NCBI GenBank assembly: GCA_947561395.2
Contig: OX387190.1
Span: 37,126,392-37,190,391 of the forward strand
DNA: 64,000 bases
DNA from: Buxus sempervirens
Lineage: Eukaryota > Streptophyta > Magnoliopsida > Buxales > Buxaceae
Direction of reading: 5' to 3'
The notes under the pieces were generated by a model. That model was not told where the DNA came from and made no database searches. It saw only the letters and a list, made by a program, of their open reading frames with translations. This document shows, in pieces, positions 3,350 through 60,518 of this stretch (within the stretch, counting starts at the first letter, position 1; each line of letters begins with the position of its first letter). Position numbers and translations under genes: made by a program.

Positions 3350-5261
3350 AATGGACCTGGATCCTCTACGGTCGAACTCGGAAAATTCTCAACCCATAAT
3401 CAATGGGAGCACGACACGTCAGTTTAATTTCTTTGCCAGGGCACGTCAGTCGTCAACAAACGAAAGCGCCCTCTCTTCCAAAAACCGAACGGGTTAACGT
3501 TAACGCCCAATATGAATATTTTATTGGGTACGACAGTCGATGCTATGCCTCGACTGTCGGACCTGCGTACCTGGTTTGACGTTTCCTCCCTTCCCTTCCA
3601 GAAGTGCAAAACCCATGGCTTCTCCAAGAATCCTCCTCTCTGTAAGTCAACATTGCTCCTTTCTCTCTGCAAATCGACAAAAATTCAAGAAGGTCATGCT
3701 TGCAACTGCTTCTTTGAAATCAGCTTAGGTCTTATTAATGGCCGGCATAAGCACATGTTTTTGGGCAAGCGCCATTAAAGGACTGCTCAACTACCTTCCC
3801 TTGTGAGTGTGTGTCCACTTCTACACTACAATAGAATCTTTCTATCTTTTGTTCATTCATCAACTACCTTCCCTTATTGCTCGAAATTGCCATGGAGGAT
3901 TCGTTGCTGCTATAGCTCCATCTTGTACAACTTCGTTTATGACAGAAGCACTCGCTGCCTTGGACTCTTTTGTTCGTCTCATCGTTGAAGATTGGAAGCA
4001 CGAGAAAACGAACTAAGCAGGTACGTTTCTAAAGAAAAATTAACTTTTAGGCACTCTATGATTTTTGTGCCTCTCTTTTTCTTCTCTGTTAGGATGGATT
4101 CAGAACCGTTCAAGCAATGGTCAGATTGAGTTCTAGGGTAAACCCAAATTTTCAACACTGGGTAGAAAGTTGCATTCTTCATTTTTTAACCTTTTATTTA
4201 TGTACTCAATTTAGGGGAGGAATGGCATTTGCTCAAAAACGTTAATTGATTCATTTTGTTAAGTCAAGTCCAGAATTCTTCTTTTTTCCCCTTTCTTTTC
4301 ATTTAGTTGAAAATTCCAAGTTCCAATTTCTGCAGAATGGCTTCAATATGAAAATATTTCTGGTCTTGCAGAGAAGAGGAGTAAGTCATCTCAAATTGTC
4401 ATCGTAGCTGTAGTATACGCAGTTGTCATAGATATGCTTGTCTCCATCATTTGGTTCATTTTATGGAGGTGCAAGCCAAAGCCAAATCATGACAGTAAGT
4501 ATCCATACTTAGAACTTAGTACTCCAAATTTTTGTGTGATTAATTCCATTAAAGAGTTGATAAACCAAATAGTGTTTAAGAATCAGAAGCAAGTTTACTT
4601 CATTTTATTTATCATATAATGTGAGGAAGTAAGGCATGCTTTGTATGCAAATACCTAGAATGTAACCACTGCAATGGGGAGCCTAGTATTTCCTTAAAGT
4701 GTGTTAACAAGCTTCCCCACATAACATACTGATATGAGTTTTTAGCAGTTTAAAAAAGCACCCCCTTTTATGTTTTCCTTTATGGGAAATTTCTCGGATT
4801 TGGCAATTTTTACTAATTTCTTCTACAATTATGTTGCTTGTTTTTTTTTTGTGAAGATATGGATGAGATCAAAAGTGTTAAATCTTTGCAATTTGACTTT
4901 GGTAAGATAAGAGCTTTGACAGTTGACTTCTCCGATGCTAATAAGCTTAGCGAAGGTGGATTTGTTGCTGTCTATAAGGTAATAACTCTACTTCTTCTAA
5001 GGACTTAAAATTTTTTTTGTCTTTATTCTTTAATTTGAGATGGTTTTGCATGAAATTTAGAGAGTTCTGTGAGCTGCTTCAACTGGATTTCAGGGTGTGC
5101 TTTCAAATGGGCACCAAATAGCTGTTAAGAGGCTCTCTAGAAATTCTGGACAAGGCGATGCAGAATTGAAGAACGAGGTTTCCTTATTAGCCAAGCTTCA
5201 ACACAAGAATCTCGTTAGGGTTCTTGGTTTCTGCTTGGAAGGGGAAGAAAGGCTACTTATC
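3350..5261 (+). repeat. Left arm of a ~1.91-kb inverted duplication (receptor-kinase 5' half)
   Basis: This arm is the reverse complement of 7363-9274. Corresponding positions always sum to 12624, so there are no net indels. I found six single-base differences: 3646, 4412, 4797, 5201, 5244 and 5258. The arm carries a short first exon starting MASPRILL at 3615, a transmembrane segment (IVIVAVVYAVVIDMLVSIIW, about 4397-4456), and the kinase N-lobe, with the Gly-loop variant GGFVAVYK, the catalytic-lysine motif IAVKRLS and a helix-C Glu in NEVSLLAKL. The match stops at 5261 inside ...ERLLI, after which unrelated sequence follows. The left copy is therefore a truncated kinase fragment. Confidence 0.9.
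5097..5261 (+). pseudogene. Truncated receptor-like kinase N-lobe (left copy)
   Basis: The exon encodes [19 protein letters not shown]... to ERLLI, typical of plant DUF26/CRK or S-locus-type receptor-like kinases. The open frame runs on to 5501 through non-homologous sequence with no catalytic loop, activation segment or C-lobe. It cannot encode an active kinase. Upstream pieces (4859-4979, N-lobe start; about 4373-4494, transmembrane exon) are in the same arm. Confidence 0.75.
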
Positions 5262-6238
5262 CAAAAGGAAAAAAAATCTAATTGTCTCTTGGTTGCCGAT
5301 TCATTCTTTCCTGTTTTGTTGACTAGTTCGTTTGAGAATGATGTAAGAATTTCTTTTTGTGATTATGAAATTGATACTTGCTACTGCATGAGAAAAGGGC
5401 TAGCAAAAGTATGGAGTTCTGGCTTCCAGGTAGCTTACATCTTGATCAAAGTACTTAGGAATTGGTTATTTTCCTGGAATTATTTCAGTTGCCTTGTATG
5501 AGTGGAATATGTATAATTCTTGGAGTTCTTAGTTTTATTCTCAGAGATTTCCTTCCTGTGAAAAACCATCTCTTCACACCACCCAGCAGCTCCTGTACAC
5601 CAAATCACAAAACAACACTCTGTGCAGAGCTCTGTGTACAACTCAATAATGTTGTCCGCACAAAACCACAAATGAATCATGTATGGTTTTTCAATTATTT
5701 AATGATGTGGTTCTGTTTTGGGAGGTATTACAACTTCAGATTAAAGTCTGACGTTAAAGCCTTCTTAAATTTTTTATCCTTAGTCAACCCCTGGAAACTT
5801 GAATGCTTCTTTGTCTTGGTTTTTGCGTTTCTTAGGCTTCACCGATTGCTGCTAGAACAACCACTTGCAGCTCGTCTGATAGCTGACATGGATGTTGATC
5901 AAGTTCAACATTCCCTAATCTGATCCACATGTTAGACGTTTTCCCTAATTTGATCCACATGTTAGACGTTTGTCATTCACATCGACAAGGAGGCGCTGTA
6001 CAACTGATGATCCAAAATGCTCAAAATCAAGCAAAGGAAACTCAATAGCCATGATCAAACAAACCAACATGGTATTAATTTACTCCAGTTTTTAGTGATT
6101 TCTTAGGACAAACAAGTTCATATATAGCTTCTAATAATCCGGATTCTTCCGTTTCTCTGCTGACATAACAAAATTCATTGATAGCTTATAATGGTCATTA
6201 TTCTTCCATTCATCTTTCTGACATAAGAATATCATAAA
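5262..6238. other. Spacer between the inverted arms, non-homologous part
   Basis: This sequence separates the truncated left arm from the 3' end of the right-hand kinase pseudogene. An open frame at 5462-5923 (+) has no recognisable domain. A 30-bp direct duplication (TTCCCTAATCTGATCCACAT..., near 5910-5970) is present in two copies that differ at about one base. No functional gene is called. Confidence 0.5.
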
Positions 6239-9009
6239 CTATTCAGCTTCCCGTGAAATATCCTCTCTTGATGGCATGTCAGCCTCAATCCTACTGTCGT
6301 CAAAAAATATAGGCCGTGAAACTGAAGGGAGAGTCATGGAGTGTCTACTGAGCATGAGAACAACTGAAGCCATGGTGGGTCTGTCAGCTACACTTTCTTG
6401 AACACATAATAATGCAATATGGATGCACCTCGTCACTTACTCTTCCAGAATGACATTCTGCCAAAGTTGGATCCATGACATCTAAGGCCATCGCTTCGCT
6501 CCATTTCATCCATGCCTAATTCAGAGATTTAAAAATGAGGGTTGCTCATAGCTACCCACCAAAGAAGAGGGAAGTGTAGATAAAAATTCAATTCATACTC
6601 ACATAGCTTAGGAGGTCTTTGGCACTTTCTGATTAAAAGAAATCAGTGTTCTTCCTGCCACTTATAATCTCCAGAAGACACCGAAACTAAACACTTCTGA
6701 TTTAAATGAAAACTGCCCATGCATTGCGTATTCTGGAGCCATGTAACCACTGAATGCCAATGTCAATGAATTAGTCTCAAGAAGTAAATTAGCCATATAT
6801 GAGTACTAGATCGTGATTGTTGCACTTACAATGTCCCCACAATTCGACTTGTATTGCCCTGTGATTGCTCTACTATAAAAAGCCTTGCCACACCAAAATC
6901 TGAAAATTTTGCATTCATATCTAGGTCCAACAATATATTGCTAGCTTTCAAATCATGATGAATAATCCTATGTTGAGAATCTTCATGAAGGTAAACAAGC
7001 CCCCCAGCAATTCCTCTTATGATCTTGTAACCCTTATCCCAATTAAGCTGTGCGCAGTTCGCAGGATCTGTGTTCACCAAATAAAGATACAAACAAGGGC
7101 TCAAAGTTGTGGCAAGTAATCATCAAGATCAGAACCAAGTTATATGTAACTCATCTATTTATCAGCCTTGCAAAATCAAATGTGAAAATGTAACTAGAAG
7201 AGAATTAAGAAGGAAGGTTTTTCATTTTCATATGAATAGTTGAACTGCAATTTCCCAGTCAAACCCAGTTGTTAAATGTAGAAATGCAAATTCAAGCTAC
7301 AGAGGATAAATATCCAAACCATATATGAAGTGATCAAGGCTTGCATTTGGCATGAGCTCATAGATCAGTAGCCTTTCTTTCCCTTCCAAGCAGAAACCAA
7401 GAACCCTAACGAGATTCTTGTGGTGAAGCTTGGCTAATAAGGAAACCTCGTTCTTCAATTCTGCATCGCCTTGTCCAGAATTTCTAGAGAGCCTCTTAAC
7501 AGCTATTTGGTGCCCATTTGAAAGCACACCCTGAAATCCAGTTGAAGCAGCTCACAGAACTCTCTAAATTTCATGCAAAACCATCTCAAATTAAAGAATA
7601 AAGACAAAAAAAATTTTAAGTCCTTAGAAGAAGTAGAGTTATTACCTTATAGACAGCAACAAATCCACCTTCGCTAAGCTTATTAGCATCGGAGAAGTCA
7701 ACTGTCAAAGCTCTTATCTTACCAAAGTCAAATTGCAAAGATTTAACACTTTTGATCTCATCCATATCTTCACAAAAAAAAAACAAGCAACATAATTGTA
7801 GAAGAAATTAGTAAAAATTGCCAAATTCGAGAAATTTCCCATAAAGGAAAACATAAAAGGGGGTGCTTTTTTAAACTGCTAAAAACTCATATCAGTATGT
7901 TATGTGGGGAAGCTTGTTAACACACTTTAAGGAAATACTAGGCTCCCCATTGCAGTGGTTACATTCTAGGTATTTGCATACAAAGCATGCCTTACTTCCT
8001 CACATTATATGATAAATAAAATGAAGTAAACTTGCTTCTGATTCTTAAACACTATTTGGTTTATCAACTCTTTAATGGAATTAATCACACAAAAATTTGG
8101 AGTACTAAGTTCTAAGTATGGATACTTACTGTCATGATTTGGCTTTGGCTTGCACCTCCATAAAATGAACCAAATGATGGAGACAAGCATATCTATGACA
8201 ACTGCGTATACCACAGCTACGATGACAATTTGAGATGACTTACTCCTCTTCTCTGCAAGACCAGAAATATTTTCATATTGAAGCCATTCTGCAGAAATTG
8301 GAACTTGGAATTTTCAACTAAATGAAAAGAAAGGGGAAAAAAGAAGAATTCTGGACTTGACTTAACAAAATGAATCAATTAACGTTTTTGAGCAAATGCC
8401 ATTCCTCCCCTAAATTGAGTACATAAATAAAAGGTTAAAAAATGAAGAATGCAACTTTCTACCCAGTGTTGAAAATTTGGGTTTACCCTAGAACTCAATC
8501 TGACCATTGCTTGAACGGTTCTGAATCCATCCTAACAGAGAAGAAAAAGAGAGGCACAAAAATCATAGAGTGCCTAAAAGTTAATTTTTCTTTAGAAACG
8601 TACCTGCTTAGTTCGTTTTCTCGTGCTTCCAATCTTCAACGATGAGACGAACAAAAGAGTCCAAGGCAGCGAGTGCTTCTGTCATAAACGAAGTTGTACA
8701 AGATGGAGCTATAGCAGCAACGAATCCTCCATGGCAATTTCGAGCAATAAGGGAAGGTAGTTGATGAATGAACAAAAGATAGAAAGATTCTATTGTAGTG
8801 TAGAAGTGGACACACACTCACAAGGGAAGGTAGTTGAGCAGTCCTTTAATGGCGCTTGCCCAAAAACATGTGCTTATGCCGGCCATTAATAAGACCTAAG
8901 CTGATTTCAAAGAAGCAGTTGCAAGCATGACCTTCTTGAATTTTTGTCGATTTGCAGAGAGAAAGGAGCAATGTTGATTTACAGAGAGGAGGATTCTTGG
9001 AGAAGCCAT
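6239..9009 (-). pseudogene. Cysteine-rich receptor-like kinase (CRK/DUF26-type) pseudogene
   Basis: Read on the minus strand from the ATG at 9009: a short first exon (MASPRILL), a transmembrane exon (about 8130-8250), the kinase N-lobe (7645-7765, then 7297-7527), the catalytic segment (6826-7045, HHDLKASN and DFGVARLF), an activation segment with [14 protein letters not shown] (about 6660-6750), and a C-lobe ending with CVQESVADRPTM (6239-6436). Family members act at the plasma membrane in defence and stress signalling. Here no DUF26 ectodomain Cys motif is visible. The catalytic HRD is HHD, and the Gly loop reads GGFVAVYKG. There is a frameshift after SFGV, a stop after NTDFF, and another frameshift before TRCIHIALLC. 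I judge it non-functional as a kinase. Confidence 0.75.
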
Positions 9010-9274
9010 GGGTTTTGCACTTCTGGAAGGGAAGGGAGGAAACGTCAAACCAGGTACGCAGGTCCGACAGTCGAGGCATAGCATCGACTGTCGTACCCAA
9101 TAAAATATTCATATTGGGCGTTAACGTTAACCCGTTCGGTTTTTGGAAGAGAGGGCGCTTTCGTTTGTTGACGACTGACGTGCCCTGGCAAAGAAATTAA
9201 ACTGACGTGTCGTGCTCCCATTGATTATGGGTTGAGAATTTTCCGAGTTCGACCGTAGAGGATCCAGGTCCATT
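7363..9274 (-). repeat. Right arm of the ~1.91-kb inverted duplication
   Basis: Reverse complement of 3350-5261 with about six substitutions. Outside 9274 the flanks diverge abruptly, and inside 7363 the right copy continues as authentic kinase sequence. This arm is therefore the likelier source and the left arm the inverted copy. No terminal repeats or target duplications typical of a transposon were found at the arm ends. Confidence 0.9.
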
Positions 9275-16000: not shown

Positions 16001-19000
16001 ATGTCCATGGACACATGATGCCATGTGGCATAGATTACTGATTGCACAACAGTGACAACATGAAATTACTGATAGGCATCTACTAAATTAATATGACATA
16101 GGTTTTTGATTGCCCACTAATTACTCTTTAATTCCTAATCTAATATTGCAGAATATCTTTCTTTTTTTCAATTTGATTCATATCACACCAACTGCAGAAA
16201 GATAGCTTTTGTTAGTTTTTCTTCCCCACCTATATTTTTATGCTTCTAGTCTATCTAGTCTTTATATTTTTAGTCATTGGATTTATTTTGCGGCTTTAAT
16301 TTTCTTTACCATGATAACTTATTCTCTATAGGGAAAAAAATAGGCAATAAACAATTGGAAGGATGATCACACATCTTCATTATTTTTTTATTTACCTCCT
16401 AGCTATTCATTTGGATCAATGAAATTTCTGATATGAGATTATATTTATGGGCTATCTTCAGATGTAGTACTTTTGTACAGATTTCATTTGTTAGGAGGAT
16501 TTATCTTAAATGCTGTATTCTTTCAGTGGTCTGAAAGAAGAAGATTCGAGATTGCTGGACTGTTATCCTCTGTGCTAAGAGCCCATTTGCATGCTTATGA
16601 CCCAATCTTTTCAATGACATTAAGATATCTCATAAGGTATCTCCACTTTGGCTCCACCTTCAAATAATATACATTGTCATAGTATATTTATTTGTACTGT
16701 TCTCTTCCTAACACTTACTGAATTCTTATTGTTTCTCTTGATGATATGCAGCATACACAAAGGATTTTGCTTTCGTCAAGGCATTCCATCTCCCATTTCG
16801 GATCTTAGTGAGAGGTTACTTCTTGAGGAGTCTGATCCGCCTGCAACACCCCAGGAAGGTCTTTATGAGGCGCCTCCTTTTGATGAGGTGGACTGCTTAA
16901 AATATGCTGCTTCTTTTTTACCTTTTCTTTTAATTATTTTTAATTTTATATAATAGTACACATTCTCCTTTCAAAATTCAGGTTGACATACAAGCTCTTG
17001 CGCATGCTGTGGAGCTTACAAGACAAAGTGCAGTTGATAGCTTGAGATTTGCCAAAGGCAATTTATTTCAGGCATTTCAGGTTCTTACAAAATTTAATTC
17101 ACCTTTAGACTGATTGTTTACTCTTTAGTGTATGTGCATGTGTGTGATATGACAAGCATCTTTTTGCTTTAATGTGGGATCAAAGAAGAAAAGATGCTTA
17201 TATATTGTGGTTTAAATTCATGCATGTTCTTATGTTATAGGAGTTTGAGTAGATTTGGGTATGAAAAATTAAGAAAATCTTTGCCGTAATCTGGGAAGAT
17301 ATGATGGACATCTTTTACATGTGCTCATGCATGTGTCTGTATGTATGAAGTTATGATGAGCATAGTAGCTTTAATAGGGAAAGATATGATGTGCATCTTT
17401 GCTCTAATATGAGATTAATAAAGAGAAAAAAAATGCTTATGTATGGTGATTTTTGTTCATGTATATTTTATGTTATATGTGTTTGAGTAGCCATGGCTGC
17501 CATGCATGAAAATTTTGGAAAAATCTCAAACCTTTAAGGGCTTTAGAATAAATTCTGATCCAGAAATTTTCTTTTCCCTTTTAAGGGACTATAAAATTGT
17601 GAAATGGTGCTGTCCATGTGAGAAAGCTGGTTTGAGTCTAAGCATGTTGTTACTACTTTATCTGTTGCCACTTGCCAGTCCATTGCTCCTAGGACCTTGC
17701 TTTGGTGGGACCTATACCAGATCACAATCATTTAATTTTAATTTCACAATAAGATTTTCCTATCTTTACCATTAATAATTGTTGGTTTTGATCTTTCAAC
17801 ATTATACTTTGTCTTGTTAAGATGTACAAATTAACTTAAAAGATAACAGAGGAAGGAAAGGAAATTTGCAGTATCTTATGTTGAAGGTTATAATCCCAAA
17901 GCCATTATGACATCAGAAAGTCAATGATGCTAAAGATTATGAACGTTGAAATCAAGGCAGTTTGTTCTTGTTAATTCATAAAAAATTGAATGATTAAAAA
18001 GAGATCAGATATGGTAGACATTTCTTGATGAGTATTAACTTGTTACTGTACTTACGTTTATACTTTTCCCCTAATGTATGAATGCTAACCATATTTTAAT
18101 GTTTCTGCAGTAAATACTCTAGTTCATTAAGATGCCAAAGAAATTTATATAAAAAGGCATGTGTCCTTTAAGTGTCTAAGTTGTTCATGCATGATGCAAC
18201 GCCATCCATGATTGGGTTTCTTTGAGATCTTGTGTTAAATGTGGGTCCTTGCTTATTATCTGAGAAGGCATAGAGTGTGCTGAACAAATTTGGCTCATCT
18301 ATTCGATGGCCATAAGGCTCGATTTATCCTCAATTGAATGAAGAAGAATGGGTGCTTTGAGAAGTAATTGGTGTATTTCCAAAATTATGATCCAAAGCAA
18401 TTTGGACCTAACCGGTGTCTCAAAGGGAAGGTTTAGGGGTGTGTGTCTCTGTGTGTTTTTTATTTTATTTTATTTTTGCTGGAAATATTAATAATTGTAT
18501 TCCAAAAAAGGCATTGTGGCTGTACAAGTATAGCTATACAATTCATCACACGCCTATAAAAGGCATAGCCTGAGGAATGAAGCCTAGAAGGCAAGACATG
18601 ACAAAAAGAACAACATAAAACATGCACAACTATACATCTCGTTCAGTCAAAAAAAGGGGGAAAAAAATACTAAACTGACTATCAGCTATATAAACTAGGA
18701 TTTCCCACGTCTGCAACATCTCTCTGTTCCTCCGATTGTCTTCTATTCCACCAGCTTGATTTCCAAATTTCATGTGAACAGTAACACTAATCTTATCAAG
18801 CACAACTTGAGAAAATCTGGCATTATGTTCTTCCCGTAGATAGTAAACACGTGCTGCAAAAGCTGACTTACGTACTTTTTGAGCAATTTCCTTCCCTTTA
18901 AGCTCCGACTGACCCAACTTACCTCCATGTCTGATGGGAGAATTGCTCGTCTGTACCCACATATCTGCAGTACTGAAGCAAATATTGGCCATGTGTAATC

Positions 19001-22000
19001 ACAAACAAAGAAAAGGTGGTTGATGGTTTCCATGTGAGCATGGCAAAAAACAGAAGTACCAGATTGAATCAACCCCAATTTTCAGCAGTCTTGCCTTGTT
19101 TAATAGAGCCGAGTTATAAGGGCGTGGTGAGGAATGTAATTAGCAAAGCAGATTAGTGTGTCATGTGAAAACTGTACCTGGTCTATTTGCAACCACCTAA
19201 TGTTAGCATGTATATTTATCCCAAAAGCAGGCAAAGATACACAAGAAATTGTGTCTTCCTCAGATGAGCGTGCGGGTAAGTAATCCTGTGCCCAAATTGA
19301 TCTCTCAGACGGCCTATAGGGTGCTGTGGATCATGCCAAGCCAAAAAGATTCACCCACTTTAAATTGAGAAGTCCAACTCCAAGAATCTTTCTCCAACTC
19401 CAAGAGGAGGAAGTTGGAATTGTGACAGCCCAGAGGTTCTTGTCACTTATCAAATTGTTTCGCACCTAACCTGCCCATAGTGATTGGAAATCTTTAAGTG
19501 ATACCCATATATCTCTTAGCAGTGCAACCTTGTTACATGGGAAGGTGATTTTTTTTTTCTTTTGTGGTTGGGATGTGTGGTTTTATTGATTGCCCTAGAA
19601 GCTTGCTATCCCTGTTTTAACTCAATTTCCAATGCTTAATGTTGATTGGAGTTGCAACAGGCTGCATGTCGATGTTGATAAAGGTTTCTTGGTAAGTGAT
19701 GAAATAATATTTAATGACTAAAATATTGCGAGTGTTGTTGTTAGAAATTTTATCAAGAAGTACTGACATGAGCTCAATGTCAGTGTTAAACAAGAAAATT
19801 AAGTGCTAACGTGGTCTCTTGGGATCCGAAAGTAATTATTCTGTTGAGATGTTATAATATTTCATTTATTAGTAAAAAAGAATATTCTATAATACTTAAG
19901 TCTTTATTAATCACTTGGTTATTGTCCTGGCTGTAATCATGGAGTTTTCTGGAATCTGTTTTTTGGAGTATTCATTAATAAGAATCAGGCTTGCAAATGA
20001 TGTGGTGGGAAACTTATGTTTGGAAAGAATGAATAGGAAGACCCTTTGGAGAGCAAAGTTAGACAAAGCAAGATGTGCACAGACGATATGGCTCCTAATA
20101 GCTGAATGTCGATTTAGGAGTTCAAAAACGAATAAAAGGGGGTAATTATATAAGTTATAATTAGTGATTATCTACCGGACCGCTGAAGCATTGTTTTTTG
20201 TGTTTTTATGCTTTGACTTAATATAGACATCTATCCTCTGAAAGTGGACTTAATACATGGAACTTGCACTAAATTATAAAAGTTTAAATCAATTGATGGA
20301 GAAAGGGGACTTTTGGATGTAATTTTATTGATAACCTAAATTTCTAGACACGTTAGAGCTAGTTGCATAACAAAATAATGCTTTTCATAATATAAAAATA
20401 TGAGATAAGAACAGAGAAACAAAAGTGCCTTGTATATATGAAATACTTGAAGTACAAGTTACATGTAATTACCTTGTAATTTCTTGCTCGTTTAGGTTGA
20501 AAACTTCATGTGTTTATTTGCTTGTTATTCATGGGCAACATATAATTCATTAATTTGAACGAAGAAAAGCAAACAAAATTATAACAGAAAAAATGGGAAT
20601 ACCTTACCTCATGCCCAAAATTAAAAGCCCAATAAGAAGCAAAATTTTGGAGGGCTAGAAACGGTGTAGCCCCTTTGATTGCACAGAAAAGACGGAAGTT
20701 GTATTCCTGATTTGTTTACCTAAAAAGAAGTTGGAGGGAAAGAAAGAAAGTAGGTAAATCTATAATTACGCCTGGAGATATATTTATATGTATGGTCTCT
20801 TGCTATTTCATTTAAAGAAGGAAAAAATAAAAGAGAGGTTCCCTGTTTCCTGGGTATCATTGGATCAAAAAGGCCTGAGGCTGGCTGAAATTCACTGAAT
20901 TGAAGTACAAGACATCTAAATTTAACATCTGGACGGAGGATCAGGAAAAGGTGATACAAATAATGGAAAGGTATAGAGTGTTTGTTAACTCTTTTAAGTT
21001 TCATAGGGGATGATATTATGTGGATAATAAGTGTTTGGACATGGTTTTCATAGAGTGGTTTGATCCAGAAGATTGCTTGTGCTCTGCTTTATGAGATACT
21101 CTGTTAGAAAAAGATGTAGGTGTCTGAAATTATGAGTCTCCAGAGGGCCATAAACAGTTTCTAACTGGAATACCTACTTATTGCATTAGTAAGAATGTCG
21201 GTTTCTGTTCAAATTCTATGGAGTTCAAGTGAATTTTGGTACTGGGATTGTGGAAGTGGAACTAATCTCACTTGATAATAGGACTTTATAGGAATTTTGT
21301 AGCTATGGCATCGATCATATGTCCTAAGCATTGAAATTTTTTATTTTATTGTGTAATGATTGCAGCACTAAATTCTTCTTACCCTTAAATAGAATACATT
21401 GTTGGTGATCATGAAGATGTTTGCCATTGGTTGCAACTTTTGTATTAGTTTCAGTATATTTTCTTGCAAGTTCACAGTTAAACCGTAACATCTATATCTG
21501 CCTATCTGGTATACTAGGATCTGTTTATGGAATGTTATTGGGATAGGAGGAACATATGTGGTTACCAGTCTCTTTTTTTTGGTATTTGTGTTCCACAGAA
21601 CGAATTGTGCCGGATGAAACTGGATGTTTCCATGCTTGATGAGCTTGTTCATGAGTATTGTGTCTATAGGGGGATCGTGGACTCTGGTCTTGCATCACCT
21701 TCTGGTGACTTTTTTGTCAGACTTGTGCATTTGTTTATGAATTTCGTGTCTGATTTTCCCTTCTTTTTTTTTTTCATGTATATGTGTATATATTGCTGAT
21801 TGTTTCCTAATAATCTTATATTCTGGCTGTTCCAGATTCATCTTTGGAAACGCATTCTAGATTGTCAAAAATTTGTCATCCAGAGCCTGGGAATCATTCT
21901 ATGTGTGACTCTTCCCATAACATGGATTGTGGAAAACAATTTGATGGTGAGACAGCCACTAACAATTGTGAGGTGGATCTTTTTCCAGAAACCAAAGCCG

Positions 22001-34990: not shown

Positions 34991-35519
34991 AAAAAAAGAG
35001 TTGAAATGATTGCGATAATCCTCCACAACTGCAATTGATTTTAATTATTAGATATCCTAGGGGTACAAACAATTCAAAACTCATTGGAAGAGCTCTTCGT
35101 ACACATCAACAGAATGTTTGATTCGGGTTAGGATGGAACCGAACATGAACGTTTTGATTTTTTGTTTAGCCTGCGGATATGTTGGGAAAGATTTCTGTTT
35201 GATTATGCATTTTGAAGATAATTTAAATATAATTTTCCGCTTTTGCGAGAATTGAAAACCAAAAAATTATATGACCACAAAAAGGAAAATAAAGTCAGTT
35301 GTGTGAGAGGGAAGTGTCAACTTGGAAACTTATTTTCAAAGCCGCACTTTTCCGTTTATAATTTTAAACCAACCTTATATCATATATTAAACAAAATTGA
35401 AAATTTCTTTTTTTATGTGACATAAAGTAGCACACAAAATTTTTTTTTTCTTATTATTAATTTCAGAAATATTTAAAAATTTCCTATCTTCAAACATAGA
35501 AATGTAAGTAAAAAAATTT
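34991..35519. other. AT-rich intergenic sequence
   Basis: No coding signal and no recognised repeat termini. Confidence 0.4.
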
Positions 35520-35785
35520 TTTTTTTTGGTAATGAACACAGCCAAATTGTATTTCTTAAAACAGGAACGAACAAAAACAAGTCCACGGGCTTCATCAAAT
35601 AGCCCATTACACAAGAAACCTGGAGACCTACCCAACCAAGTACATGAAAAGTGATCTTGTGCGAAATTTTCAAGGAGATTAGTAATGGAATTTGCTTCAC
35701 GGAAGATATGAGAAAATTTTACTTTCACAAACATTGAAATCAACTTCTGAATTTCCAACACATAAGGCCGAGCCTTCCATGGCAT
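35520..35785 (-). mobile_element. LINE RNase H fragment
   Basis: The minus-strand frame reads PWKARPYVLEIQKLISMFV followed by SHIFREANSITNLLENFAQ, which is the C-terminal part of the plant LINE RNase H-like domain (FSH-FREAN-AN-A pattern). The poly-T run at 35515-35526 would be its A-rich tail. It is truncated and isolated. Confidence 0.65.
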
Positions 35786-36025
35786 GTTTTTAAAAAAAAA
35801 AAAAAAAAAGACCTGTTGGTTAAGTTATTATATGTTGAAACTTTGTCTAAAGGCGTCCTTTTAAATTTATGGCTTCGTGTAACGCAAGCTATCACTCTTT
35901 CCCTTTTTTGGATGTTTTTGAGATTTAAGATTTAAATTAGCTCATCGGAAGATTCAGAACCCATAAACGATCCCATCAAGCATTTTATCTGTTGTGAAGC
36001 CGTGCTGGTCGAACGTTAGAAGAAA
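35786..36025. promoter_or_regulatory. Presumed PREP promoter and 5' leader
   Basis: About 240 bp between the LINE fragment and the PreP ATG. An A-run at 35792-35809 and AT-rich sequence are present; no specific factor-binding site is assigned. The inference rests on position only. Confidence 0.3.
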
Positions 36026-50522: not shown

Positions 50523-50937
50523 AATTTCAATCTGGTTAATGTTGGAAGAAACACGTATCTTTGTATACAAGGTGCTCAACTGCCTGAGCTGTGGATGTTG
50601 TAATCGCGTTCTCCAAATTCTTCACACCAATCCATGAATAATTTTCTTTTCAACAAATATTCTCTCATGTAACTTAAATAACAGTTGAGTAGTGAGGTGT
50701 TAGTCGGAAATTTTTTCTCTCTCTACTTTTCCTTTGTCTTTAATACCTTTTCTTCCTCAACCTTTTTTTCGTATGTTGTGAACTTGGGAGGACGAGTTGT
50801 TTCCTTCGTTTTTGTCTTTTTCTTGGTTTGATACTTTCGTCTGATGGAAGGAGATGCTCTGCTAAAGAGCCAGCCATCCTCTTTCAGGTACTCAAAACTC
50901 CCCGTGAGTCCGCTCGCTGCGTGTGGGTTTTGCTGAA
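50523..50937. other. Intergenic: PREP1 3' UTR and carboxylesterase promoter
   Basis: 415 bp between the PreP stop and the first carboxylesterase ATG. A CT-rich stretch (TTCTCTCTCTAC, near 50712) and AT-rich flanks are present. No other gene. Confidence 0.4.
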
Positions 50938-51870
50938 ATGGATTCACGCAAGGCTGAAATAGATGAAATAGATTACGAGTTCCTTCCTTACCTACGCGTG
51001 TACAAGGATGGACTCGTTGAAAGACTTCGAGGTACCGAGGTCATCTCCGCCTCCTTCGACCCCCACACTGGTGTATCCTCCAAAGACATTGTAATCATAC
51101 CAGAATTAGGGATTTCAGCCCGACTCTACCTCCCCAAGATCACAAGCTCTAATCACAAATTACCCCTCCTTGTGTTCTTCCATGGTGGTGCCTTCTGCAT
51201 CAGCTCAGCCTCTGACCCAAAGTGTCATCGCTTTCTCAACTCGTTAGTAGACGAGGCCAGTGTTGTGGCCGTGTCTGTAGACTACCGACGAGCCCCGGAA
51301 CATACGCTCCCAACTGCATATGAAGATTCCTGGGCTGCACTCAGGTGGGTGGTTTCCCATTCGAACGGGGAGGGTTCTGATCCTTGGTTGAACAACCATG
51401 CCGACTTCGACCGAGTCTATTTGGCCGGAGATAGTGCAGGGGCTAATATTGCACATAACATGGCGATGCTTGCTGGGAACCTACAACCACAACAGGGTCT
51501 GGGTTTGGAGCTTCTCGGGGTTGCTCTGATCCAACCTTACTTCTGGGGTTCACAGCCAGTCGGTTTGGAAGCGATCGATCCTAATAGAAAAACACAAGTG
51601 GACCGCGTATGGCCATTCGTGTGTCCTTCGAGTCCGGACAACGATGAGCCGCGTGTGAACCCAGTGGCAGCCGGAGCGCCGAGCCTGGCGGGTCTTGGGT
51701 GCAGCCGAATGCTGGTGTGCGTGGCGGAGAAAGATGTGTTTAGGGAGAGAGGAAGGCTTTACTACGAGTCTTTGGCCAGGAGTGGGCGGATGGGGGTCGC
51801 GGAAATTATGGAGACAGAAGGGAAGGATCATATCTTCCATCTCAACAACCCTACCTGTGAGAATACTTAG
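50938..51870 (+). CDS. Class I carboxylesterase (CXE), C-terminally truncated by an in-frame TAG
   Basis: A single-exon HSL-type alpha/beta hydrolase of 310 aa, related to plant carboxylesterases and gibberellin-receptor-like CXEs. Features: oxyanion-hole HGGAF (82-86), VDYRRAPEH, nucleophile S166 in GDSAG, and by family pattern D266 (VAEKD) and H298 (KDHIFHL). The family hydrolyses small ester substrates; this one's substrate is unknown. The ATG at 50938 matches the starts of the two downstream paralogues. The frame ends at TAG (51868-51870), but the next 16 codons in the same frame read LLRRLASFFN-like sequence before a TAA (51919-51921), aligning with the C-terminal helix (MMKRVVSFMNQN) of the third copy. 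The stop therefore looks like a recent nonsense change, perhaps CAG to TAG. The catalytic triad is upstream of it, so activity may persist. Confidence 0.85.
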   Translation: MDSRKAEIDEIDYEFLPYLRVYKDGLVERLRGTEVISASFDPHTGVSSKDIVIIPELGISARLYLPKITSSNHKLPLLVFFHGGAFCISSASDPKCHRFLNSLVDEASVVAVSVDYRRAPEHTLPTAYEDSWAALRWVVSHSNGEGSDPWLNNHADFDRVYLAGDSAGANIAHNMAMLAGNLQPQQGLGLELLGVALIQPYFWGSQPVGLEAIDPNRKTQVDRVWPFVCPSSPDNDEPRVNPVAAGAPSLAGLGCSRMLVCVAEKDVFRERGRLYYESLARSGRMGVAEIMETEGKDHIFHLNNPTCENT

Positions 51871-51921
51871 GGCTTGCTGAGACGCTTGGCTTCTTTCTTC
51901 AACAGGAGCAGGCCTCCCTAA

Positions 51922-52438
51922 CCGTAATTTGGTTTGATTTTGGTTTGTTTAATTTTCTGTTTTTCTCTTCTTGAAAATCAAAATCTGTGGTGTGCGGTTC
52001 TATACGAGTTAGGGGTGTAATCTCTAGCTGTCGATCTGAGAATTGCTCCCTGAGTAGGTAAGTTTTCCCTTGCATTTTAATTCTACAGATTCACGGGTGG
52101 GAATCCTTGGAAAAGGGCATTTTTTTATTTTAGGACGACTTTGCGGAATCAGCTTTCTTATCTGCTGAGGGTGCGCCCTTCATATGAGGAATTCTTCCAA
52201 AAATGGGTGCCAATTCACCGAGGAATTCTTCCAAAAATGACCTCAACAGAGTGTATCACTTAGTCTCTATTGTTTTATTTCCAATACTGCACCCACAGAA
52301 CCAAAAAAACAATAAACAAAAAGTAAAAAAACCAAGAGAAAAAAAAAAGGTTTATCTCCAATGCGTCTCCTTGCCTTTAATAAGGAGGCACTCATCTCCT
52401 TATCCTCCAAGTCTCTTATTCTTCGATCTTCTTCTGCC
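51922..52438. other. Intergenic between the first and second carboxylesterases
   Basis: About 500 bp. A 19-20-bp direct repeat GAGGAATTCTTCCAAAAATG occurs at about 52187 and 52219. The last 80 bp before the ATG resembles the leader of the third copy (CTCATCTCC...TTCTGCC), supporting tandem duplication including the 5' flank. Confidence 0.5.
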
Positions 52439-53401
52439 ATGGATTTGAGCGTAACAGAATTAGACCACGAATTTCTTCCATTCGTCAGAGTTCACAAAGA
52501 TGGGAGGGTAGAGAGACTCATAGGCAGTGACGTTGTACCTCCATCTCTCCACTCCCACACCACTGTTTCCTCCAAAGGCATTGTCATTGTCCCAGAAACT
52601 GGTGTTTCTGCTCGCCTCTTTCTTCCCAATAACATCAGCCCCCATCAGAAACTCACCGTCCTCGTTTACTTCCATGGAGGAGGCTTCATCATAGAAACTG
52701 CCTTCTCTCGTCTCTATCATGACTATCTTAACCTGTAAGTCTCCGAGGCCAACGTTGTTGCCATCTCGGTGGACTATAGACGCGCTCCTGAGCACCCAAT
52801 ACCCATTGCTTACGAAGATTCATGGGCTGCTCTCCAGTGGGTGGCTTTTCACTCTGGGGGCGATGGCCAGGAGGCCTGGTTGAGAGATCATGCAGACTTT
52901 GGCAAAGTGATCCTGGCCGGCGACAGTGCAGGTGCCAACGTCGTTCACAACATGGCCATGCGAGCTGGGAGGACCCAGTTGCCTGGTGGGGTAAAGCTTC
53001 GTTCTGTTGTTTTGGTTCATCCTTACTTCTGGGGAGATGAAAGGATTGGTTCTGAGGCAACAAAAGATCCGTCTATGCTCGAATTGATAAACAAGGTGTG
53101 GGTTTATGTTTATCCAACGGCAGTCGATAATGAGGATCCGTGCCTCAACCCTTTTGCAGCTGGAGCGCCGAGCTTGTCTAGCCTGGGCTGCACCAGGGTG
53201 CTAGTCTGCGTTGCAGGGGAGGACGTGCTTAGAGATCGGGGGTGGCTTTACTACGAAGCTTTGGGAAAAAGCGGATGGGATGGGGTGGTGGAGATCATGG
53301 AGACAGAAGGGGAGAGCCACGTGTTCCATCTGTTCAACCATACCAGTGACAAGGCTGTCGACATGATGAAACGATTGGTCTCCTTCATGAACCAAAATTA
53401 G
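52439..53401 (+). pseudogene. Class I carboxylesterase with a single internal nonsense codon
   Basis: This is a 321-codon frame (320 amino-acid positions), collinear with the intact third copy without indels, except that codon 100 is TAA (52736-52738) where the third copy has TTA (Leu in NSLVSEANV). Downstream everything is preserved: GDSAG nucleophile, VAGEDVLRDRG, ESHVFHLF and the terminal MMKRLVSFMNQN. If translated normally it gives a 99-residue fragment that contains the HGGGF oxyanion motif but no nucleophile, so it is a pseudogene unless the stop is bypassed. The codon lies in the string TGTAAGTCT, a good 5' splice donor, but no matching acceptor that would restore the frame was identified. 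Loss looks recent because no other defect is visible. Confidence 0.8.
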
Positions 53402-53582
53402 ATTATGTACCTTGTTGTTATTTCCATGGTTACTTTGAAATTATCAAAGATTATGGAATATTGATAATTAAGTGTGTTTAATTAGTTTATTACCAACAAA
53501 AAAACAAAGTGTGTTTAATTAGTTCCGCTAAGCGTCTAATACTCTAATCGTACTTCAGATATGGACTCAGTCAACAAACAGC

Positions 53583-54882
53583 GGACTTGCATCGTCTACA
53601 GCATAGACTTCACAGCGCGCACTACAGCATGTAGGAGGAGGTGACGCGTGGTCAACATGTCTCGTGCCAAGCATGAGACAACTTAACGGGACAAAAGACC
53701 TCAAGTCCCGTTAACGGCTGCTGCGGAGGGGTAAAATTGGAAAACAATGAATAAAATATAAAATTTCTCTTTTAATTGGTTTGTGTCTATCGTTTTCAAC
53801 CTTATTGCCTGCAATTTCGCTCCAAGTTCATCAGAGAGACCCGTGACTACTTTTTGGAAAACAATGAACTCACACAAGTGCTTAATCTGGTTTGTGTGTA
53901 ATGGGCTTTGGGATAATCTAGTAGGTTATATCCTATTTCAGAAAAAAAGGCTTTCATCTGGGGGACCCTGAGCTCATCATTCCTAGAATATTTCAAGTTA
54001 ATCAGAGAGACCCACGAATACTTTATGTTTATCTTGACTGAATTGAAGTTCCTCGAAGACGAGCAAAGAGAGAGATTTTGTAACAAATAGAATAAGTTTC
54101 TCTTGTTTTTCTTCCATTTGGATTATTTTTCAACTCGAGTAATATCATTCAATATCCTTCGTATTTTTCTTCCTCGTCATGGATTTTTAAAACCTCCTTA
54201 ATGCTCCTTATAGTCTATAGTCTAATCTCAATTTTTTTCCTTTTTCCTGGAGGTGCGGATGTGTTTTTTTATGTCTCCCTTATTAACTGAAGTATCAACA
54301 ACCTTGACCAATGTGTAAATTTTTAATCAAAAGAAACGAAATAGAATAGAGTACAATAAATATAACAATCTAGTGAAACTTTTAATCTCCATGTTACAAT
54401 GATGATGCAGCCACCTGATGGCATATTCTTGGATCAATGAGAATGAGAAGACCAGATTCACTGAAAGATGTTTGAAGCTGGTTTGTGAATGCCCTTGGAG
54501 TGTGCCGACTAGCAATTGGAGGAGCTCCTGTGTACTGCACAAACTTAAAAACAACCCTTTGACCATAAAGCATTGCAGATTGAACAATGATGTCTTGCGG
54601 GTTTTCAATTGCAACGATAACCCTAGCAGCTAGTTGAAGCTTCTCCCATGTTAAGAGCAGAGGGAAGAAGACGATGAACTAGGCGGAACTCTTTTATTGC
54701 TTTTATCACCCGCCTGTTTCCGTTTTTTGCTTTTTTTCTTTTTTGTATTTTTGGTTTAATACTTAATGGGATGGGATACCGTCAATGGCTTGCCAGGCAC
54801 GCGGGAGTCCTGGACGCGTGGCGATGTTTCCTCTACGCTGTAATCCATGCTGTGAAGTCCATGCTGTAGACGATGCAAGTCC
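53583..54882. mobile_element. MULE-like non-autonomous element, ~1.3 kb
   Basis: The termini are inverted: GGACTTGCATCGTCTACAGC at the left end and its exact complement at the right, with about 34 bp near-identical and weaker similarity to about 100 bp (both arms contain ACGCGTGG/CCACGCGT motifs). Flanks carry a 9-bp direct repeat, ACAAACAGC (53574-53582) versus ACAAATAGC (54883-54891), 8 of 9 identical, as expected for Mutator-like elements. The interior has a GTCCCGTTAACGG hairpin near the left end and no convincing transposase. It lies about 180 bp downstream of the carboxylesterase pseudogene. Confidence 0.7.
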
Positions 54883-54891
54883 ACAAATAGC

Positions 54892-55185
54892 AGGTTCCTT
54901 GTATTTGTGTGTAGTGTTTTTTCTGTTTAGACGTTTCTTAAAAGGTATCTTGGACGGATATATATCTCATATGCATATAATTAATCAGTAAAATTTGTTC
55001 CCTCTTGTTGTCTTATATCAATTTTTTTAGTGCATTTCCTCTGGAGCTAGAATCCGGTGGTACCATGAAACCACCTGATGGGATGTGGGCCCCCATGAAA
55101 CAGTGCATCCTTCTGCATGTTTGCATGTTTGGGTACCATTGAGTGGCGCCAGATGAAATGAAACGTTCTCCAATTTCTTTTGGAT
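54892..55185. other. Intergenic, no gene
   Basis: AT-rich sequence with short GC-higher patches (55060-55160). Nothing recognised. Confidence 0.4.
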
Positions 55186-55516
55186 AAATTGGTTTTTAGT
55201 GATACTTTCTTAAAATAATTCAGATTCAGTCACTTAATTCTAGGTAATTGAGATTTAGTGGTACTTTTTTAAAATAATTGAGCAACAATATAATTCATAA
55301 AAAATTTATTCTGACAATACCTTCAAAAGACTTTGAAAACCTACTCAATAAGTGAAGTTTCAAGTCGTTTGAGGGTATTTTCGGAAACAATATGTCATAA
55401 ACAGTAAAGTCACACTGATTTTCAATTATTTTAGAAAGGTACCACTAATTCTCAATTACCAAGAATTGAACGACTGAATCTGAATTATTCTAAAAAATAT
55501 AACTAAAAACCAATTT
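55186..55516. mobile_element. MITE with ~100-bp inverted arms
   Basis: The left arm (55186-55285) and right arm (about 55420-55516) are reverse complements, sharing AAATTGGTTTTTAGT, AATTCAGATTCAGTC and GGTAATTGAGA. The centre is short and AT-rich with no coding. A related arm is present at 1788-1885, and a weaker third relative (GACTGAATCTAAATTATTTT) at about 55590-55615. I could not define a target duplication with confidence. Confidence 0.7.
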
Positions 55517-56110
55517 TCCTTTTTTCTGGTCTCATGCTAGATCGTTATAGTTTAGCTTAATTAATGGAAAAGTAAGACAATGGTGGGAGACTGAATCTAA
55601 ATTATTTTGGAAAAGTAACACTTAAAACAAAATTTCCCTTAAAATAAAGGCTTTTGCTGGTTGTGGTTTAAAAAAAACGATTTACATAACCTGATGGTAA
55701 GCCCAAAAAGTGCTCAACAACAGCCTCGAGGTTCTTTTTGTAAATTTTCTTTCTCTCTCCTTCATTGGAACTCATAAAACTCTTTTACACTTTTCTTTCT
55801 CTCTCCTGTTTGAAACTCATAAACTCGTTTATTTTTTATTCAAGCTGCTTGTTTAATTACGAGCACTTGTAGACTACTGTTAACAAATTTTATGGAGCCA
55901 TTCTTCTCAAATCTTCAGTTTTCAATGAGATTGATATGTATACATTTTTGAATTGGCAAGGTTTCCCTTGCATTTACAACCAATTCAAGGGTATATATAT
56001 GAGTTTTGTTGAAAAATACGAGAAGGCTAAAGATATGAGAGGAATTGCTCCTGAGGGATGGCAATGGGACAAGTTCAAGACGGGATTTGGAGAACCAAAA
56101 CCTACCCCTG

Positions 56111-56396
56111 CAGGGTTGGTAATGAGGCAGGGTGGGTTTGACCCAGTTGGAGTATAAAATGTTAAAAAAAAAATTGTATTTTGAGTAGAATACATATATA
56201 TTAATAACATATGTGTTTTTATACATGATATATATGAAAATAATATTTAAAACATATAAAAATAATAATTTAATATAAGAAGGTCAGGTTCAGGGTGAGT
56301 TAGGTTGGGCGAAACCCAAACCGAATTTAGCCATACCAGACCCTAACCATTAGGGGCAAGAAGGTTACACATTAACCCGCCCCATTGCCATCCCTA
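56111..56396. mobile_element. Degenerate hAT-like MITE
   Basis: The left end CAGGGTTGGTAATGAGGCAGG pairs imperfectly with the complement of the right end (CCGCCCCATTGCCATCCCTA). The interior includes GGTTGGGCGAAACCC-type text as in other plant hAT MITEs. No matching 8-bp target duplication was found, so the ends may be eroded. Confidence 0.45.
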
Positions 56397-56502
56397 ATCT
56401 CCTACCTTAGTTTATTAAAATATTATTTTAATATATATATATATATATAGTGCATAAAAAATATGTTTAATAAATAAATATTAATCGATATATATTTAAA
56501 AG

Positions 56503-56990
56503 GGTTTTTTACATTCATATCCCTACATTATGATATATTTGTATTTATATCATCTTGTTTTTAGTATTTGTATTTATATCCCTTCATTTAGAATAATTGT
56601 TGCAACTGTACCCCTAACGTAAAATTTCCATTAACTTTTGTTGTTTATAATTAACCTTCTATAAGATAAAAAAAATATTTAGGCGGAATTCTAATGAAAT
56701 ATTATTAATTGAGTAAATTAATATTAAGGACTTAAAGTATATATGCAATAAATATAATGATATAAGGACATAAATGAATTTATAAGATAATATTGGACGA
56801 TAAATGCAAAATATTTTTTATTTTATACAGGGTTACTTTAGTCATTTAATTAAAATAAACATAAAAAATTAATAGACTTTAGCTTTGGGAGTATGATTGC
56901 AATGATTATACAAAACAGAGGGATATAAATACAATAGGCTATAGATGCAAATATAATATAATATAAGGACATGAATGCAAAAAGCCCTAG
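56503..56990. repeat. AT-rich inverted-repeat (MITE-like) element
   Basis: The left end AGGGTTTTTTACATTCATATCC and the complement of the right end (AGGGCTTTTTGCATTCATGTCC) match at about 18 of 22 positions. Similar GGACATAAATGAA motifs recur in the interior. No coding and no clear target duplication. Confidence 0.5.
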
Positions 56991-57197
56991 TTAAAAATGT
57001 ATTTTTTCATATTTATTTGTTCAATCGGATCAAGGTCGACTTATTGCCACTCTAAACCCGCTCAGTTTCTATCCCAAGTCATTATTATCCATGCTTACAC
57101 AACTGCCGCTAATAAGAGAACTCAAGTTGATTACCAAAAAAATAAAATAAATAAGAGAACCCAAGTCTCCTTTTATGCTCGTTGTTAGAGTGGAAAT

Positions 57198-57945
57198 TAG
57201 AGCTGCAACTCGTTGCGGTTTGGTTCGGGTTGGTCTCAACCCAAGACCAAACCAAGGTTATTGATAGTCAGTCCAAAACCGAACCGAACCGACCTCAGAA
57301 CCGAAATACCCAAACCGAAAACCAAACCGATTATTTAAAGAAAACCCGTAACCCAACCCAAACTGAACCGAATTGCAAAATTCGCTTCGGTTTGGGTCAT
57401 TTTCCCATACTTAAAACCTATTATCAAGAGAGAGAAATTCCCACTTTTGTCTCCAAAAAAAATTTTAAAGAGTACACACAACAAATTTAAAGGATCATCA
57501 CTTACATGCGGTCCAATCCCTTAAGTAGTTTACATGCATACATAAGATGGAGCAAAGAGCTTAGAATCCCAAGTCATATGTTAATTGTTTTGGATCGCAC
57601 TTTTGAGCTCATGAATTAATTTAATAATTAATTACAAAGATTTATAAAATAATAATCTTATTCATTATTTTATAACTTATAATTTATAAGTTATATTTTA
57701 TTATTACAACTTTATTTATTGTATATTATATATATATATATATTTCGGTTTGGTTCTATTTGGTCTAGTTCGGTTTTATACTTAGGAAATTCGGTTTGGT
57801 TTTCGGTTTAGTTCGGTTAACCCGAGCCTTTAACCCAAAACCGAACCAAACAAATTCGGTTATCTATTTTTAGAACCAAAACCTACCCAAAGTCGGGTTG
57901 GACCGGTTCAGTTTCGGTTTTAACTTACCCAAGTTGTAGCCCCTA
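57198..57945. mobile_element. Second copy of the hAT-type CGGTTCGG MITE, 8-bp TSD
   Basis: The left end TAGAGCTGCAACTCG and right end AGTTGTAGCCCCTA are the same diverged terminal repeats as the element at 1941-2466. A perfect 8-bp direct repeat GTGGAAAT flanks it (57190-57197 and 57946-57953). The interior again consists of CCGAACC/GGTTCGG motifs around an AT-rich core (about 57600-57745). At 748 bp it is longer than the first copy. Confidence 0.85.
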
Positions 57946-57953
57946 GTGGAAAT

Positions 57954-59555
57954 GTGTGAATATTTGACGACGCTTGAAAAGTGCCATATGAAGCGGTGAC
58001 ACGAGAATTTTTAGGGAGTGAACGTCCCTACAAGATTAAATAAATATGTAAACAAAAAAAATTCACTAACAAATCTTATCTTTCCATGCACAATTCCAAA
58101 AACAGAGAATCCAACAGATATATAATGTCTAAAAAATAAAATATAATACAAATAGATCTACAAGCCCTAACCGTACTATCCTCTATAAACATGATGACAG
58201 AAACATTTTAAAAAATTTATGATTCTTATAAGATCTATGCCACATGGAAACTTAAGTAAATAATCCTAAAGGATAAAAATAAAAATATAACTTACACTAA
58301 ATTCATGCAGAAAATAGTAAAATCTACTTACCTATTATGAAAAATTGAGCAATAAAATATGTTTTCTTTCTAATCTTCAAAATATCCCAAACTCCGCCGG
58401 CTTCGATCCAAACAAAAAGGCAAAAAAATAAAATAAAATCCGCCGGCTCCATCAGACAAGGACGACAAGAGAGAGGGCTTTACGTTGCCGAATTTGCATC
58501 GCGAGGCCCTTTGTCTAAAGCCTTTTATATTACTACCAAGGGTCTACGTGCACGTAGAGAGTGGAGAATGAGGAGAAGAGAAGTGGGGGAGTAGTTACAA
58601 ACTGACTGGGTTTCGAACGAAAAATGCTAAATTTAGACGGTTAGAACCTTGTATTATTGAAACCCAAACTACGTAGGGAATGAGCATTTTGGGAAAGTTG
58701 AGAATTGTTTGACACGCTTCCCAAGGGCCTTTCTCGCGTTAAATATAATATATAGATTTTTATTAAGTTTAGAAAGATTTAATCCGAATCGTCAAAATTG
58801 CATGATGATAAAAAGGTTAAAAAATTCTGTGTGTGCAAACATAACATACGATATCGGATGATATCTGCTATCTGCTGCAGTGATATAGTGCTGTGATCAC
58901 TGCATAGACTGTGAGATGCTACCACGTGGAGCATCTCACTGCCTTCTGTTTTCATTTTTGCATGGGTCCATTTCAAACAAAATAGAAGGAAAAAACTGTA
59001 GACGATTTTGTTTCATAAGATACACCATCACTAAATTTGGCTTTTGGTCAAAAGTCAAAATTAATTTAGGTTTACTGCAATGCCAGACGGGATTAAGACG
59101 GCTAAAGACGGAATGAAATCATCTGCCACTGTAGGGCTCATGCGGCAAACGATTTCAGTGAGAGTTGTTAATATTTCACGTGGAGCATCCTACTGTCAGT
59201 GTTTTTTCACTTTTTATAAATATTGTATATGGGGCCAATTTGAAAAAACATTGAGCGTGAGATACTCACATGGAAGCATCCCACTTCAACAGTGGTAGCC
59301 AATTCAGGCCATCATTGTCATTCCAACTAAAAGTATCCTACCTCGATGTCGATCTCCCAACAATAACCCCTAACATATTGAAATTTGTTGGGACTTTTGT
59401 TTCACAAGAAAGGAATCTTGATTTGTTCATCGGACCAGATGCTTCCTTGGCTCATTGTTGAAGTTGAATACCCTTATCAATATCTCCGATGTGTTTGTTT
59501 TCGTCGCTTTGAATAGGCACTACTCATCTCCTCCTCCTATTCCTCTCCTTCTGCC
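57954..59555. other. Intergenic upstream of the intact carboxylesterase
   Basis: No gene recognised. Two CACGTGGAGCATC motifs, the first part of a palindrome (GATGCTACCACGTGGAGCATC, about 58915-58936) and the second near 59178, suggest another eroded inverted-repeat element between about 58880 and 59290. A repeated CCGCCGGCT motif occurs near 58397 and 58440. The final about 60 bp is a CT-rich leader matching that of the pseudogene copy. Confidence 0.4.
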
Positions 59556-60518
59556 ATGGATTTGGGCCTAACTGAAATAGATCACGAATTTCTTCCAATC
59601 GTTAGAGTATACAAAGATGGGAAGGTGGAGAGACTCATAAGCGATGATGTTGTTCCTCCGTCTCGCCACTCCCACACCTCTGTTTCCTCCAAAGACATTG
59701 TGCTTGCCCCCGAAACTGGTGTTTCTGCTCGCCTCTATCTTCCCAATAACATCAGCCCCCATCAGAAACTCCCTCTCCTCATTTACTACCATGGAGGAGG
59801 CTTCATCGTCGGAACTGCCTTCTCCCGTACCTACCAAGACTATCTTAACTCGTTAGTCTCCGAGGCCAACGTTGTTGCCATCTCAGTGGACTATAGACGC
59901 GCTCCTGAGCACCCAGTACCTACTGCTTACGAAGATTCATGGGCTGCTCTCCAATGGGTGGCTTCTCACTCTGGGGACGATGGCCCGGAGGCTTGGTTAA
60001 GGGATCATGCGGACTTTGGCAGGGTGATCCTGGCCGGCGACAGTGCCGGTGCCAACATCGTTCACAACATGGCCATGCGAGGTGGGAGGACCCAGTTGCC
60101 TGGCGGTGTAAAGCTTCGTTCTGTTGTTTTGGTCCATCCTTACTTCTGGGGAGATGAAAGGATTGGTTCTGAGACAACAAAGGATCCGTCTAAGACCGAA
60201 TTGTTCAAGAAGTTATGGCGCTATGTTTGTCCGACGGCCGTTGATAATGAGGATCCGTGCATCAACCCAGTTGCAGCAGGAGCGCCAAGCTTGTCCGGTC
60301 TTGGCTGCACCAGGTTGCTAGTCTGCGTTGCAGGAAAGGACGTGCTTAGAGATCGGGGGTGGCTTTACTACGAAACTTTGGCAAAGAGCGGCTGGGATGG
60401 GGTGGTGGAGATTATGGAGACAGAAGGGGAGGATCATGTGTTTCATCTGTTCAACCCCACCAGTGACAAGGCTGTGGACATGATGAAACGGGTAGTCTCG
60501 TTCATGAATCAAAATTAG
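59556..60518 (+). CDS. Class I carboxylesterase (CXE), intact
   Basis: A single-exon, 320-aa HSL-family alpha/beta hydrolase. HGGGF (79-83) forms the oxyanion hole, the nucleophile is S163 in GDSAG (161-165), and by family pattern D262 (VAGKD) and H294 (EDHVFHLF) complete the triad. VDYRRAPEHP and VHPYFWGDERIG are further family hallmarks. There is no signal peptide, consistent with a cytosolic enzyme acting on small carboxylic esters or xenobiotics; the substrate cannot be read from sequence. It is the third gene of a same-strand tandem array and is closest to the pseudogene at 52439-53401, with which it also shares the CT-rich 5' leader and a short 3' segment (GTGTTTAATTAG...AAGCGTCTAAT). 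The ATG follows TTCTGCC, as in that copy. Confidence 0.92.
   Translation: MDLGLTEIDHEFLPIVRVYKDGKVERLISDDVVPPSRHSHTSVSSKDIVLAPETGVSARLYLPNNISPHQKLPLLIYYHGGGFIVGTAFSRTYQDYLNSLVSEANVVAISVDYRRAPEHPVPTAYEDSWAALQWVASHSGDDGPEAWLRDHADFGRVILAGDSAGANIVHNMAMRGGRTQLPGGVKLRSVVLVHPYFWGDERIGSETTKDPSKTELFKKLWRYVCPTAVDNEDPCINPVAAGAPSLSGLGCTRLLVCVAGKDVLRDRGWLYYETLAKSGWDGVVEIMETEGEDHVFHLFNPTSDKAVDMMKRVVSFMNQN

Follow-up and report, generated by a model that had tools for sequence, protein, structure and literature searches.

At rice Lgc1, duplicated gene parts lie in a read-through or inverted layout that goes together with silencing. The same can be said of the soybean CHS inverted repeats, where duplicated gene parts in such a layout accompany silencing (PMC3608071). 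Few natural silencing cases have a suggested trigger, and read-through of rearranged genes and convergent transcription are the ones given (PMC3608071). In the Arabidopsis accession Cvi, the inverted layouts VIM4-VIM2 and PAI4-PAI1 have been reported to make siRNAs (PMC13213937), and two inverted pseudogene pairs with small RNAs are known from rice (PMC2708354).

The locus described here was found in a 64-kb stretch of Buxus sempervirens DNA, called the window below, and it is confirmed as an inverted repeat, an instance of an arrangement already known in plants. In soybean CHS and rice Lgc1 silencing is reported, whereas the present locus is only a candidate for it. Like PAI4-PAI1 of Arabidopsis Ws/Cvi, the locus is a tail-to-tail inverted gene duplication from which a near-perfect stem-loop RNA is possible, and like VIM4-VIM2 of Cvi it is an inverted pair lying near enough for read-through and chimeric transcripts (PMC13213937 for both systems). 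Unlike PAI4-PAI1, for which siRNAs and silencing of homologs are reported in that source, the locus apparently derives from a pseudogene and one copy holds the 5' part only; unlike VIM4-VIM2, which is head-to-head and has reported siRNAs, it is arranged tail-to-tail. As in the rice pairs, two pseudogene copies lie side by side in opposite orientation and a hairpin is possible; the two rice pairs have stems of about 154-185 bp and identities of 83 and 96% (PMC2708354), in comparison to 1912 bp and 99.7% here. On this footing the locus may be counted as one more candidate silencing repeat rather than a demonstrated case. Taken as a whole, it is read as a recent inverted partial copy of a pseudogene, made by repair or template switching and having no protein role, for which self-silencing would be the likeliest outcome if it is transcribed; a probability of roughly 0.7 is given to this reading.

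Geometry of the inverted repeat

In a base-by-base alignment the two arms (Table 1) are reverse complements of 1912 nt each, aligned ungapped with 99.69% identity and a coordinate sum of 12624. The spacer between them has 2101 nt, and both its length and the arm coordinates were reproduced by an independent repeat finder. The sequence-only reading, which had described arms of 1.9 kb with about six mismatches, no net indels, a sum of 12624 and a 2.1-kb gap, proved exact on all these points. The six mismatches are located at 3646, 4412, 4797, 5201, 5244 and 5258, leaving perfect runs of 296, 765, 384, 403, 42, 13 and 3 bp, and 1790 of 1892 21-mers are common to both arms. When the window was compared with itself (E<=1e-10), the arm pair came out top in length and in identity among the 10 repeat pairs listed, and a match of this kind is far outside chance expectation. 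The inner arm end is soft because only 3 matching bases follow the last mismatch at 5258; the true end may be 5257, which would give an arm of 1908 bp with five mismatches.

Table 1. Parts of the inverted repeat and of its source gene. All exon bounds are the authors' reading of the sequence; exon numbering, from exon 3 on, follows the CRK convention.
Feature	Position	Strand	Description
Plus-strand arm	3350..5261	+	Partial copy, inverted; holds ~0.98 kb of upstream sequence, the transmembrane exon, exon 3 of the kinase and most of exon 4
Minus-strand arm	7363..9274	-	Same stretch, copy of parental look; colinear with the downstream kinase exons
Spacer	5262..7362	.	Parental pseudogene, 3' part (7362-6239); other sequence, ~1 kb (6238-5262)
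Transmembrane exon, parental copy	8130..8288	-	159 nt between AG and GT; has its mirror image in the plus arm
Kinase exon 3	7646..7767	-	122 nt; glycine loop degenerate
Kinase exon 4	7320..7530	-	211 nt; contains the inner breakpoint of the duplication
Kinase exon 5	6830..7067	-	238 nt; HHD in place of HRD, DFG retained
Kinase exon 6	6603..6749	-	147 nt; frame shift (by eye), stop 6635-6633 in the shifted frame
Probable kinase exon 7	6239..6515	-	Second frame shift; final stop 6241-6239; taken as exon 7 by eye, from sequence motifs

The low divergence between the arms is what would be met if a chimeric or allelic fragment had been put in reversed during assembly, and 0.31% is also in the size range of allelic variation. 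Such a mis-assembly is nevertheless held to be very improbable: each of the two distinct breakpoints of the repeat is flanked on both sides by unique sequence, its six mismatches are spread along the arm, and from a simple fold-back chimera one would expect a palindrome that is perfect and lacks a unique spacer.

Other repeats occur in the window. A 30-bp unit forms a tandem pair with 97% identity at 5911-5970, within the spacer and about 270 bp past the final stop of the parental pseudogene. An element of 526 bp at 1941-2466 carries terminal inverted repeats, with arms of 38 nt that are 76% complementary and have TAGGGGTGCAA at their tips, and is flanked by an apparent 8-bp direct repeat, GTTCTGAT; we take it to resemble hAT-type MITEs. 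The imperfect palindrome at 55182-55519 matches its reverse complement at 77% identity, has related pieces at 1788-1889, and is possibly another MITE family. Nearby Pfam matches comprise plant succinate dehydrogenase subunit 5, a Peptidase M16 domain and a carboxylesterase-type alpha/beta-hydrolase. Carboxylesterase-like ORFs stand in a row at 50908-60521, the first one tested matching PF07859 (E 2.8e-50) and the others assigned by similarity; a direct repeat pair of 978 bp, 88.9% identical and ungapped (52427-53404 and 59544-60521), is found there, the first copy of which is interrupted by an in-frame TAA stop (52736-52738). Weak matches to the reverse-transcriptase-associated domains zf-RVT (E 0.00091) and RVT_3 (E 0.0004), both under the curated cut-off, at 18773-19081 and 35390-35824 are perhaps retroelement remnants.

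The source gene and its probable parental copy

The kinase part of the locus matches PF07714 in Pfam (E 1.8e-21), and the joined exons 3-5 match a solved plant receptor kinase with a best E of 2.7e-42. Ahead of this RLK-type kinase domain lies a hydrophobic segment (read by eye), so the transmembrane-plus-kinase organisation of a CRK is present. The ectodomain that defines CRKs, DUF26 (Gnk2-type), was not found at E<=1 in the scanned material, namely three of the six frames (among them two of the three arm sense frames), a set of eight pieces, and a further set made up of seven open pieces selected from the third sense frame ahead of the transmembrane exon together with one ORF beyond 9274. 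The arms had been described from the letters as the 5' half of a receptor kinase, with the cysteine-rich family as the supposed target, and two parts of that description held, since a kinase domain is recognised both by Pfam and by the solved receptor kinase and since the arm does include the transmembrane exon together with the N-terminal part of the kinase. The rest has to be changed: the source is an apparent pseudogene in which no recognisable ectodomain was found, and the cysteine-rich label is an assumption made from sequence motifs. In open papers containing all the terms together, no literature joining CRKs with inverted repeats or pseudogenes was found.

In comparison with the two solved chains shown, exons 3-5 have lost two glycines of the glycine loop and read HHD where HRD is found, and exons 6-7, read by eye, contain two frame shifts and one premature stop. 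As it stands, exon 6 matches PF07714 under the cut-off (E 0.0086); when its two frames are joined by X, the score is 23.2 bits against a cut-off of 23.1. The last 63 residues of exon 7 gave no Pfam match. The intact frame, complete glycine loop and HRD motif expected of a working kinase are thus missing; the source gene looks like a decayed receptor-kinase pseudogene, and the locus is most likely without protein function. Pfam gave no match above the curated cut-off in the approximately 0.98 kb upstream of the transmembrane exon, and no match in the frames and pieces scanned of the spacer part 6238-5262. An RNase H or retroelement origin of the sequence upstream of the transmembrane exon, suggested by eye, was rejected on the basis of no Pfam match at E<=10. 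The weak matches of the locus to PRIMA1 (E 0.97), COS (E 0.095) and CR_prot_dom_plant (E 0.36), all of them under the curated cut-off, are taken as chance.

The two copies are not equivalent. The minus-strand copy continues past its arm, unbroken, via exon 4 into AG/GT-bounded kinase exons as far as the stop, and it is the only one that carries on into the remaining kinase. The plus-strand copy stops inside kinase exon 4 at about 5257-5261, after which unrelated sequence follows. Because exon 4 is cut off in the plus arm, while the minus copy goes on through the kinase exons, the plus arm looks derived; it is probably a partial copy, with the minus-strand copy as its parent. Pseudogene and truncated copy face each other tail to tail. 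Local alignment of the 700-bp flanks detected no homology beyond the breakpoints, the scores being 22 at the inner and 27 at the outer breakpoint and the maximum of 100 shuffles being 30 for both.

Two of the mismatches, 5201 and 5244, make the arms differ in amino acid (Q/H and E/K, respectively). At 5244 the plus arm has E and the minus arm K, and the residue is D in solved BRI1 and G in the second solved chain shown; at 5201 both solved chains shown carry a residue other than Q or H. That the minus copy has changed since the split would be only lightly supported by this comparison, because the polarity depends on one residue (5244) and on CRK motifs. Mismatch 3646 sits in a GTAAGT/GTAAAT pair, by eye a candidate splice donor.

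Origin and age of the duplication

It is proposed that 1.9 kb of the decayed minus-strand pseudogene, which runs from the arm start at 9274 to the stop at 6239, was recently copied one way and inverted, and that the copy was placed 3' of the pseudogene at about 2.1 kb from the copied stretch. As the mechanism, template switching or copy-in repair at a DNA break is considered most likely, in preference to a transposon. We infer this repair origin and the age of the copy, as well as any RNA or silencing arising from the locus.

Capture by a transposon or a foldback element was considered and rejected because target-site duplications and terminal repeats are no better than background. With 3350-5261 taken as the insert, there is no target-site duplication of at least 3 nt at its ends; direct repeats of 3 nt for 7363-9274 and of 4 nt for 3350-9274 are present, and at least 3 nt was obtained in 256 of 500 random placements. 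The best terminal inverted repeat of the plus arm has 11 of 20 positions, a value equalled or bettered by 132 of 500 random placements, in a search that can miss short or gapped repeats. Because neither a target-site duplication nor a terminal repeat rises above background, a repair or template-switch copy is the favoured origin. The bases just past the arms mismatch at the outer junction, and at most three bases are shareable at the inner one, so microhomology at the junctions does not clearly favour template switching.

At substitution rates of 1.3e-8 or 2.5e-9 per site per year, the divergence of 0.31% corresponds to about 0.12 or 0.63 million years, an estimate that is valid only if gene conversion is absent. 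An older inverted duplication whose arms gene conversion has kept alike except close to the inner breakpoint would be compatible with the position of three of the six mismatches within the last 61 bp of the arm (p about 0.001; such crowding at one end or the other arose in 0.11% of simulations). The crowding depends on where the arm is ended: with an end at 5257, two of five mismatches fall in 57 bp (p about 0.017, 1.7%), and three of six mismatches within 57 bp anywhere in the arm have a p of 0.045 (4.5%). In addition, the outer arm end is without mismatch crowding and no residual homology extends past the breakpoints into the 700-bp flanks. Crowding at the inner end is thus a weak hint of conversion, and an old, homogenised duplication is considered improbable. 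The inverted repeat is probably young, which agrees with the earlier claim that the high identity (6 mismatches in 1912 nt) implies a recent event or conversion, the second half of the claim being only weakly hinted at.

Predicted hairpin and possible silencing

An RNA reading through 3350-9274 is predicted to fold arm to arm with 1906 of 1912 register positions paired and an energy of -4064.7 kcal/mol. The expectation of a very long hairpin from any transcript across the locus is borne out by this prediction, and an arm-to-arm fold is to be expected of any such repeat. The locus has the structure of an endogenous inverted-repeat siRNA locus, i.e. a long, near-perfect, foldable inverted repeat. 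Transcription of either copy through the spacer would give a duplex of about 1.9 kb open to cutting by Dicer-like enzymes, and most likely the resulting small RNAs would act on the locus itself, by silencing and methylating it. Local self-silencing is thought likelier than action on other genes, since antisense siRNAs of rice pseudogenes were mostly 24 nt (PMC2708354).

A rival reading is that of a functioning hairpin-siRNA locus (proto-MIRNA or PAI/VIM/Lgc1-like) acting in trans to silence related receptor kinases. It could draw on the near-perfect arms, their many identical 21-mers, the tail-to-tail layout and the predicted fold, and it has precedents in VIM4-VIM2 and PAI4-PAI1 of Arabidopsis Cvi (PMC13213937) and in rice, where small RNAs come with two pseudogene pairs of inverted layout (PMC2708354). 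Several points speak against it, though. With a decayed source, it is uncertain whether working kinases would share long exact matches with it. The 2.1-kb spacer also has poly(A)-like hexamers on either strand, at which transcription might stop short of the second arm, although such motifs are common. The length of the rice pseudogene siRNAs points to local silencing, and for proto-miRNA small RNAs there is, according to PMC13128112, little evidence of a substantial effect on gene expression. Nothing in the 64-kb window reached the Rfam gathering score for a known structured RNA. Silencing in trans is accordingly rated unlikely. It is also rather doubtful that the locus is a very young hairpin locus in which a kinase pseudogene yields small RNAs restraining working immune-receptor relatives before shrinking to a MIRNA. 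No tRNA was detected in the window by ARAGORN (bacterial code).

The preferred reading thus remains a recent partial copy that would, if transcribed, silence itself. Some plant MIRNA genes are proposed to have started as long inverted gene duplications, which also underlie several natural silencing alleles. With a young repeat made from a receptor-kinase pseudogene, one could test how frequently such events turn into silencing loci and how frequently they remain inert.
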